The notes beneath the pieces are model-generated. The model saw only the letters and a list, made by a program, of their open reading frames with translations, searched no databases and was not told where the DNA came from. From a virus: a DNA stretch of 30,240 nucleotides. The position numbers and the translations under genes are program-made. Below, piece after piece: positions 3,915 to 29,068 of this stretch; the stretch's first letter is position 1, and every line of letters starts with the position of its first letter. The stretch is from positions 1 through 30,240 of IMG/VR virus record IMGVR_UViG_3300030107_002153; one strand, 5' to 3'.

Positions 3915-3941
3915 TTTATACTAATTGTTTTATTTTGTCAA
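3915..3941 (-). promoter_or_regulatory. Promoter P4
   Basis: TTGACA (3941-3936), 15-base spacer, TATAAA (3920-3915) on the minus strand, upstream of the DUF932 gene. The spacer end ACAATTAG resembles the ACAATCA element of P2 and P3, but the full inverted repeat is missing. The -35 box overlaps the last codons of the gene ending at 3930. Confidence 0.7.
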
Positions 3942-5767: not shown

Positions 5768-5803
5768 TTTAATAGATTTGTAACAAGAAAAAATAAAACA
5801 ATC

Positions 5804-5811
5804 AGTATAAT
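5804..5811 (+). promoter_or_regulatory. Rightward -10 element AGTATAAT
   Basis: ACAATCAGTATAAT ends at 5811 on the plus strand, 55 bases ahead of the TTG start at 5867. No good -35 box is seen at 15-18 bases. It is the only plus-strand member of the AGTATAAT group found upstream of several leftward genes. Confidence 0.45.
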
Positions 5812-10490: not shown

Positions 10491-10513
10491 ATTTAGTTTC
10501 CTCCTAAAATATT

Positions 10514-10532
10514 TAGATAGATTTTCTATCTA
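10514..10532 (-). repeat. Inverted repeat next to -10 element
   Basis: TAGATAG (10514-10520) and CTATCTA (10526-10532) form a perfect 7-bp inverted repeat with a 5-base centre, three bases from the -10 element at 10536-10543 and around the expected transcript start. It could be an operator or a 5' hairpin. Confidence 0.5.
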
Positions 10533-10535
10533 TTT

Positions 10536-10543
10536 ATTATACT
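10536..10543 (-). promoter_or_regulatory. -10 element AGTATAAT
   Basis: ACAATTAGTATAATA on the minus strand, 46 bases upstream of the start at 10490. It lies just after the end of the putative frameshift tail of the protease gene. No good -35 box at the usual distance. Confidence 0.45.
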
Positions 10544-10553
10544 AATTGTTTTA

Positions 10554-10688
10554 TTATTTCTTTTTTACCGCTTCAGCGATTTCGTCTCTTTTCTTTTCAC
10601 CCGGACTGCCTTCCTTGAAATTCCTATATCCAAGTTTTTTGGCTTGGGCTGTAGCAACTGCGAATGGGTTATCTACAGCCGCTAGTCT
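10554..10688 (-). CDS. Frameshift tail of the protease gene (-1 frame)
   Basis: A 44-codon frame without a usable start codon, entered by a -1 shift at TTTTTTA (10694-10688). It reads RLAAVDNPFAVATAQAKKLG then YRNFKEGSPGEKKRDEIAEA and ends VKKK. The segment NPFAVA..AKK.GY..F.EGS.G.KKRDEIAEA looks like the conserved C-terminal motif of many phage structural proteins, so the frame is probably coding. With the shift the protease would have 535 residues instead of 492. The alternative is a lost T in the six-T run, from mutation or sequencing, splitting a once continuous gene. Confidence 0.7.
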   Translation of the reverse strand, partial: RLAAVDNPFAVATAQAKKLGYRNFKEGSPGEKKRDEIAEAVKKK

Positions 10689-10694
10689 AAAAAA
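10647..10694 (-). promoter_or_regulatory. -1 ribosomal frameshift signal
   Basis: Slippery heptamer T TTT TTA in the zero frame (10694-10688), a 7-base spacer holding the zero-frame stop TAG, then a perfect 8-bp stem GGCTGTAG (10680-10673) / CTACAGCC (10654-10647) with an 18-base loop. ACCC in the loop could pair with a downstream GGGT to give a pseudoknot. All elements of a classic -1 signal are at standard distances. Confidence 0.7.
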
Positions 10695-27844: not shown

Positions 27845-28119
27845 AATTCTTCCTTTATATCTTTTTTAGTAATTCCTTTTATATGAATAATATCTTCTAT
27901 TTCATGATACTGTTTTAAATCAATATCTCTTTTGGCATCCCGTTTAGCAGAGTGACCATATACTCCATCAGCTTCCACTACTCTCTTTATCTCTGACACA
28001 TAAAAATCTACTATATATGGAGGAAAACTAGTTTGTTGTGAGTATCTCACGCCAAATTCGTCTAAGCATTCAGCAATAATGTTTTCTTGTTTAGTATATT
28101 CTTTAGGTGGTAAGTTCAT
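27814..28119 (-). CDS. DUF559/Vsr-like endonuclease
   Basis: 101 residues from the ATG at 28119 (MNLPPKEYTKQENII); a TTG at 28134 would add five residues. A PD-(D/E)XK core like that of DUF559 and the Vsr mismatch endonucleases: PPYIVDFYV (Asp38), VVEADGVYGH (Glu49, Asp51, His56), RDAKRD and a final helix with IIHIKGI. Such small nucleases nick or cut DNA; here it may act in replication, repair or degradation of foreign DNA. It overlaps both the recA-like gene (17 bases) and the Cas4-like gene (31 bases), in a compact recombination operon. Confidence 0.75.
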   Translation of the reverse strand: MNLPPKEYTKQENIIAECLDEFGVRYSQQTSFPPYIVDFYVSEIKRVVEADGVYGHSAKRDAKRDIDLKQYHEIEDIIHIKGITKKDIKEELWLELNKLSQ

Positions 28120-29068
28120 TTTGCAATTCTTCAAGTAATGTAGGAGCCTCTAAAAACAGTGACTTTAACCCATTTAGTCCTTGCACCTTTGTTCCTTGAT
28201 ATGTATACCAAGTCCCAGCTTGTTCAATAACACCAACCGCAATCCCGTCACGCATAAAGGTTTCAATAATATCTATACCCCCATCTGCTTTAAAGGGAAC
28301 TACAGCGGCTTTCCAATTTTCGCCACCTATTTTAGATTTATGCATTCTTACTTGCATATCAAATCCAACAGTCTCTTCGGTCCCATTTATTTTTTCTTTT
28401 ATCCACCCATCTCTTCTAACTTCTAACATAGCATGTGCAAAGAAAGTTTGTCCTTGTCCACCCGGCCAAGTATTTGTAGGACGTATTCCTCCAAGACTTT
28501 GTCTCATCTGATTGATAGCAATAAATGCTGAACCATTTTTTAAATAAGGAAACAGTTTAGGAAAGGAACTGTTTACAAATCTACCTTGCCATGCCATTGG
28601 AGAGTGGGCAAAATTACCTTTTTCAATCTCTTCGGTCATTGCTGTGGGTATAAGTCCTGCAATACTATCAAGTACAACTATATCTATACCTGCGGCTAGT
28701 CCTTCTCTAACATGTCCCATAGCTTCTTCACCTGTAGATGGTTGAGCAACTAGTATCTTAGACTGGTCTACGCCGCATCTACTCATCCAATCCTTATCAT
28801 ATGACATTTCAGTATCTACCCACATTGCTGTTCCGCCATCTTGTTGTGTTCTGGAAACAGCTAAAGAAGAAAGATAGGATTTTCCCACATTCGGAGGACC
28901 ATAAATTAAAGTAAATCTGTTCTTAGGTATACCACCACCTAGTAACTTATCTAGTTGAGGTAAACCAAAGGTTATTCTTTCAACTGAATCAGTGTCCTCA
29001 CCGAAAGAAAGGTTTAACCCTTTCGTCTTTAATAGTTTTTGTATAGCATTATTTGCGTCTGTATCCAT
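28103..29068 (-). CDS. RecA/UvsX-type recombinase
   Basis: 321 residues, about the size of the RecA core. Walker A GPPNVGKS (57-64), the catalytic Glu of VDTEMSYD (Glu87), Walker B DIVVLDSI (Asp134), and FIAINQMRQSLGG (DNA-binding L2 region) followed by GGQGQTFFAHAMLEVRR are all present in the RecA order. The N-terminal oligomerisation helix is short and the C-terminal part is compact. It forms filaments on single-stranded DNA and pairs homologous strands in phage replication and repair. It overlaps the preceding gene by one base and is followed at once by two nuclease genes and the resolvase. Confidence 0.9.
   Translation of the reverse strand: MDTDANNAIQKLLKTKGLNLSFGEDTDSVERITFGLPQLDKLLGGGIPKNRFTLIYGPPNVGKSYLSSLAVSRTQQDGGTAMWVDTEMSYDKDWMSRCGVDQSKILVAQPSTGEEAMGHVREGLAAGIDIVVLDSIAGLIPTAMTEEIEKGNFAHSPMAWQGRFVNSSFPKLFPYLKNGSAFIAINQMRQSLGGIRPTNTWPGGQGQTFFAHAMLEVRRDGWIKEKINGTEETVGFDMQVRMHKSKIGGENWKAAVVPFKADGGIDIIETFMRDGIAVGVIEQAGTWYTYQGTKVQGLNGLKSLFLEAPTLLEELQNELTT

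Follow-up and report, generated by a model that had tools for sequence, protein, structure and literature searches.

Frameshifting by −1 or +1 has been described in phages for tail chaperones and for extensions of capsid and tail proteins (PMC5009743, PMC10885494). In the tail assembly chaperone system gpG/gpGT, known from lambda and most long-tailed phages and also described for HVTV-1 and HCTV-1 (PMC5009743), a −1 slip takes place near the end of a virion-assembly gene. Frameshifted extensions of capsid or tail proteins are known for T7 (10B), T3, Lactobacillus A2 and Listeria A118, A500 and PSA (PMC5009743). For archaea, a review names only one confirmed case of −1 frameshifting (PMC8211752). 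In the part of the literature that is open access, to which our search was confined, we found no published case of programmed ribosomal frameshifting (PRF) in a phage head maturation protease, which agrees with a preliminary description of the present locus that knew of no precedent. Comparison of sequences now indicates that the protease taking part in shell assembly apparently exists in two forms in a marine virus and in about thirty of its relatives. We consider it very probable that the programmed −1 ribosomal frameshift is genuine and that its 535-aa product is real.

The DNA analyzed (the window) is a stretch of 30,240 nucleotides, a contig of a marine virus. Its zero-frame protease gene passes the threshold of Pfam Peptidase_S78 (PF04586; 31.1 bits against a cut-off of 21, 3e-07) and matches the PHROG head maturation protease at 1.5e-16. 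The gene is part of a head/packaging module, which encodes terminase, portal and an SU10-like major capsid protein on the same strand. Judged by its profile matches, it is an S78-type head maturation protease. The preliminary description had called it XkdF-like; the assignment as a maturation protease holds, but the XkdF family itself is narrowly missed, since Pfam Peptidase_S78_2 (XkdF) scores 23.1 bits, below its cut-off of 24.

The nearest annotated Peptidase_S78 relatives belong to Druskaviridae haloviruses (HVTV-1, HCTV-1/5), which have the same core with 30-32% identity over ~150 residues. Unlike the window’s gene, these halovirus protease genes are single-frame and lack a match to the window’s tail. 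The protease N-terminus in HVTV-1, HCTV-5 and HCTV-1 (L043, L044 and L045, respectively) is DNPDYSESRAYAICWSQ-like and loosely resembles the tail motif. The host signal is mixed: the window encodes a bacterial-type RecA with a RecA_C domain (28103-29068, minus strand), whereas its capsid and protease genes are closest to those of haloarchaeal viruses. An archaeal host, hinted at by the halovirus-like protease and capsid protein, was considered and dropped in view of this RecA and of a strong AGGAGG before the next gene. Between the tail and that gene (10500-10545, minus strand), a promoter-like TAGTATAATAAATAGATAG is present, with an inverted repeat and the AGGAGG after it. Parts of this stretch recur at 5782-5811 (plus strand) and 3916-3934 (minus strand), and many relatives have a similar sequence after the tail.

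The features of the locus, in window coordinates, are as follows.

12160-10682, minus strand: zero-frame protease gene, putative main product 492 aa, ending GAT TTT TTA GAC TAG
10694-10688, minus strand: slippery heptamer T_TTT_TTA, in zero-frame phase
10687-10681, minus strand: spacer GACTAGC, 7 nt, from heptamer to stem
10684-10682, minus strand: zero-frame stop TAG
10680-10673, minus strand: 5' arm of the putative stimulatory stem, GGCTGTAG
10672, minus strand: bulged A between outer stem and inner helix
10671-10668, minus strand: inner helix 5' arm TAAC, 4 pairs
10658-10655, minus strand: inner helix 3' arm GTTG, 4 pairs
10654-10647, minus strand: 3' arm of the putative stimulatory stem, CTACAGCC
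10688-10554, minus strand: −1 frame tail of 44 codons plus TAA (at 10556-10554), RLAAVDNPFAVATAQAKKLGYRNFKEGSPGEKKRDEIAEAVKKK
10667-10635, minus strand: tail helix 1, PFAVATAQAKK, predicted by an AlphaFold2 model
10604-10560, minus strand: tail helix 2, within SPGEKKRDEIAEAVKKK, predicted by an AlphaFold2 model

The arms GGCTGTAG and CTACAGCC form 8 perfect pairs, and the stem-loop has a minimum free energy of −15.4 kcal/mol (z −2.9 against shuffles). Because the −1 frame contains 44 codons before its TAA, the expected products are 492 aa and 491+44 = 535 aa long. The 535-aa product would give the junction peptides ...STDFLR... and LAAVDNPFAVATAQAK, and the zero-frame C-terminus would read ...STDFLD. 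These readings reproduce what the preliminary description had claimed: the heptamer, its phase, the 7-base spacer, the 8-bp stem and the 44-codon −1 frame are correct base for base and at the right coordinates, and reading the frames gives the same two forms of 492 and 535 residues. However, a heptamer alone is a common occurrence in this AT-rich window, so the case rests on relatives. In-phase T_TTT_TTA occurs 5 times among the 8,742 codons of the window’s ORFs, and the protease heptamer is the only one from which the −1 frame stays open for more than 20 codons beyond the stop. What raises this heptamer above chance is its conservation across 30 distinct homologous sites.

Relatives were collected from IMG/VR, where 39 loci have 56-94% identity to the window’s protease and profile searches found about 269 stretches encoding relatives; tail-only and DNA-pattern searches were also used. 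In GTDB genomes, 76 stretches fit a pattern, and none of these encodes a relative. Removal of identical cores left 125 entries for classification. The tail is in the −1 frame in 41 of them, within the same ORF in 18, in a second overlapping ORF in the +1 frame in 4, and on a separate same-frame ORF in 3; a further 42 have no recognized tail, and 17 are incomplete (truncated). More distant relatives encode the same tail in one continuous frame, which the preliminary description had proposed to look for. Because some loci are repeat fetches of one contig, we count distinct frameshift sites, of which there are 30, rather than loci.

Several relatives have unusual architectures. In L109-L118 the protease is split, and the C-terminal part with the tail starts from a +1-frame ATG that overlaps the first ORF at its end. 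In L105-L107 the protease ORF ends in hydrophobic repeats, and a separate ORF of ~460 codons further downstream encodes the Cys motif together with the tail. The protease of L078 (948-4001) has an in-frame insert of ~1.65 kb composed of repeated units (FTEPFPG..ARYL.QGETPAEGV.VHTT.QGASWVS); we considered an intein and dropped this idea, as the region is repeated, charged and of low complexity. In L207, L209, L211, L223, L225 and L228, the protease ORF is very long (862-1199 codons) and has no recognized tail. Finally, L083, a contig of 4.2 kb, encodes a different protease on each strand and is possibly a chimeric assembly.

Sites of −1 PRF are expected to have a heptamer of the form X_XXY_YYZ, in zero-frame phase and ahead of the zero-frame stop, and T_TTT_TTA in this arrangement, with a T run of exactly six, is present at 30 of 30 distinct sites. 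All 105 copies scanned have six T; they come from many separate assemblies, and many of them are repeat fetches of one contig. The surroundings of the heptamer are more variable. The zero-frame stop is TAG, TAA or TGA, and the gap from heptamer to stop is 3 nt, except in L024-27, where it is 12 nt. The codon before TTT encodes Asp, Asn, Tyr or Ser, and its final base is always T. Synonymous identity is 1.00 at all three heptamer codons (NNT, TTT and TTA), a value reached in only 7 of the 351 informative codon columns; among the other columns, the best values are 0.87 for Phe and 0.80 for Leu. The sequences with PRF share kinship and are not independent draws, but neighboring codons with the same history vary freely.

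In the relatives, a stem lies ~6-9 nt downstream of the heptamer. This agrees with the distance of 5-9 nt at which an RNA structure is expected downstream of a −1 PRF site; in L023 and L024, the structure is weak. In most members, GGCTGTAG/CTACAGCC is retained with wobble changes. The stem of L092 is different (GAGAA-GT-CGCAAC with GTTGCG-AC-TTCTC), and short, sequence-unrelated G/C stems are found at about the same spacing in L021, L024 and L028. A GGTGG/CCACC stem is possible in L023 and L084, where the minimum-energy fold of L084 is another one. These differences suggest that the stem re-evolved with a different sequence in some lineages. At the stem positions of the alignment, 95% of cells have standard pairs, versus 18-63% when the arms are slid, and 3 stem pairs have changes on both sides. 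We also compared each fold with 1000 recodings that are synonymous in the −1 frame. The native fold is within the most stable 5% for 13 of 15 sequences, and for L092 and L031 no recoding out of 1000 is as stable. In L023 (p 0.36) and L024 (p 0.19), the stem is not clearly better than its synonymous alternatives. For a Shine-Dalgarno-like stimulator ~10 nt upstream of the heptamer, no conserved candidate could be placed; matches are mostly 18-20 nt upstream, in a protein-conserved stretch, and we rejected this element as unsupported.

The main mechanistic rival is transcriptional slippage, in which the polymerase would add one U at the run of six T, so that seven-U mRNAs encode the fusion in one frame. 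The homopolymer run is at exactly the right place for this process, and the resulting fusion protein would be identical. However, transcriptional slippage usually needs a homopolymer run of eight or more, whose length is free to grow. Here, the run is exactly six in all copies and never longer, even though longer runs would be favored. The polymerase would also need neither the constrained phase, nor the final A, nor the 6-9 nt spacing to a re-evolved stem. Transcriptional slippage is accordingly disfavored by the pattern of conservation, and we see only a slim chance that it is correct. The heptamer, spacer and stem persist in homologues while neighboring synonymous sites vary, which is the outcome that the preliminary description had proposed to look for. 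Its interpretation as a −1 frameshift is supported by the heptamer, stem and −1 coding conserved at 30 distinct sites.

If this interpretation is correct, ribosomes on the protease mRNA would meet U_UUU_UUA with a hairpin 7 nt ahead. Most of them would decode GAC and stop at UAG, yielding the 492-aa protease. In a minority, both tRNAs would slip back by one base, and translation of 44 more codons would produce a 535-aa protease that ends in a 38-residue hairpin. Tandem slippage as the step, and the longer form as the minority product, are assumed by analogy with established knowledge of −1 PRF.

The protein encoded in the −1 frame is also under selection. Beyond the stem, the tail has a pN/pS of 0.133 when read in the −1 frame; read in the other two, the same bases give 1.46 and 2.39. 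Within the tail, synonymous sites are most constrained at the stem codons and less so elsewhere, while the amino acids stay fixed. Every member with PRF has a spacing of 2 mod 3 between the CxCExCF motif and the tail (62, 65, 68, 161, 182, 266), despite large indels, and members with an in-frame tail have a spacing of 0 mod 3 (42, 45). The length from core to tail changes only in steps of three. Homopolymer runs are common places for indel errors, and it is conceivable that a base was missed in assembly or that the gene was recently broken and is decaying. However, the out-of-frame state is found in 30 distinct sequences from many assemblies, and the length steps of three and the purifying selection on the tail refute an assembly error or pseudogene, to which we give essentially no credence. 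The preliminary description would have abandoned the frameshift if raw reads showed seven T; with six T in every copy from many separate assemblies, such a result is not credible. Taken together, the sequence comparisons indicate that the heptamer, its phase, the spacing, the stem and −1 frame coding are under selection.

An AlphaFold2 model of the 44-aa tail predicts a helical hairpin of 38 residues (mean pLDDT 86.1). The in-frame relative L082 is predicted to have the same hairpin at its end (block pLDDT 78-92), in a full-length model that is poor except for this hairpin (mean pLDDT 51.5). We found no convincing match to the tail among Pfam, PHROG and PDB sequences, no match among phage records, and no significant Foldseek match. 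A segment of cyanophage S-RIM8 gp114 (DPYAIGMAQAMK..KKAHKIAKAIKK) weakly resembles the tail and is a lead only. In L021 and L024-L028, the −1 tails are 76-115 residues long, with hydrophobic inserts before the hairpin motif.

The tail might instead be made as a separate small protein by re-initiation past the stop. This idea gains some plausibility from relatives L109-L118, in which an overlapping +1-frame ATG starts the C-terminal part and tail, and from L105-107, whose tail sits on a separate downstream gene. However, the −1 ORF in the window has no ATG, GTG or TTG start codon. In most relatives with PRF, the only ATG comes after helix 1, and the window has Leu at that position. Moreover, re-initiation leaves the heptamer unexplained. 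We therefore rejected it as very improbable.

The existence of in-frame and shifted states inside one gene family makes the switch between them traceable. In a phylogeny built from 170 columns of the protease core, members with PRF group inside relatives with an in-frame tail; the PRF node is moderately supported (83/69) and includes one in-frame row on a long branch, and the bootstrap is not settled. One nested group (L093, L096 and L102) lost the tail, and its heptamer is broken (G_TTT_TTA, GGT TTT TAG or TTG TTT AGC); L093 has a possible relic of the tail, EIAKAPK, after the stop. The signal is thus conserved beyond coding need and lost with the tail. From the Cys motif to the tail motif, the distance is 65 in the window versus 42 in the in-frame L082, a net gain of 23 nt, which suffices for the heptamer, stop, spacer and most of the 5' stem arm. 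PRF probably arose once, from an ancestor with an in-frame tail, by a net gain of ~23 nt that brought the heptamer, the stop and most of the 5' arm. The direction of this change, from in frame to shifted, is suggested by the outgroups.

A further reading is that the frameshift is real and its ratio serves no purpose. In this scenario, a ‘3n-1’ insertion broke a needed in-frame tail, slippage rescued it, and selection keeps the rescue. Relatives outside the clade do carry an in-frame tail, and the net gain is ~23 nt. However, a single indel would restore one frame, yet this has happened at 0 of 30 PRF sites, and several lineages rebuilt the stem with a new sequence. The rebuilt stem and the lack of reversion suggest a use for the zero-frame product and for the ratio itself, and we consider a purposeless ratio unlikely.

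The number of protease molecules per procapsid is limited: HK97 has ~60 to 415 shell subunits, and D3 has ~90 per prohead (PMC12749128). This limitation makes the rationing of a docking domain plausible. Our tentative proposal, which we hold at somewhat below even chances, is that the hairpin acts as a domain for docking or assembly and that frameshifting limits the copies of tailed protease entering or anchored in the procapsid. With similar caution, we suggest that this lineage may have taken an always-present docking hairpin and rationed it via a short frameshift cassette, such that slippage would set the amount of tailed protease per procapsid. Alternatively, the longer form may serve chiefly as a minor structural or scaffold-linking protein, not as a tagged enzyme. 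In L105-107 and L109-118 the tail is on a polypeptide apart from the protease domain, and some −1 tails have hydrophobic inserts (L021, L024 and L028). However, every member with PRF joins the tail to an intact protease whose core is highly conserved, and we regard this alternative as doubtful, though deserving of some weight.

Compared with known systems, the window’s protease is like gpG/gpGT in that the minority form is extended at the C-terminus. However, the gpG gene precedes the tape measure gene, whereas the gene in question here encodes an S78 head protease in a head module, not a chaperone upstream of a tape measure protein, and its extension is unrelated, consisting of a short 38-residue hairpin. 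Extensions of the T7 10B type resemble the window in that a frameshift of set ratio, placed where a head gene ends, adds a small C-terminal domain of a kind that is encoded in frame elsewhere. In that type, major shell or tail proteins gain mostly Ig-like domains, whereas here an enzyme gains a helical hairpin. Annotation pipelines will miss this tail. Because the family includes in-frame, shifted, split and lost states side by side, it is an unusually clean case for studying the origin and purpose of a frameshift signal. If our reading is true, this is the first frameshift known to us that sets the stoichiometry of a phage maturation protease, and the origin of its signal is visible in living relatives. 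Most known cases of phage frameshifting concern tail chaperones and shell proteins; here, regulation would act on an enzyme whose copy number per procapsid is limited.
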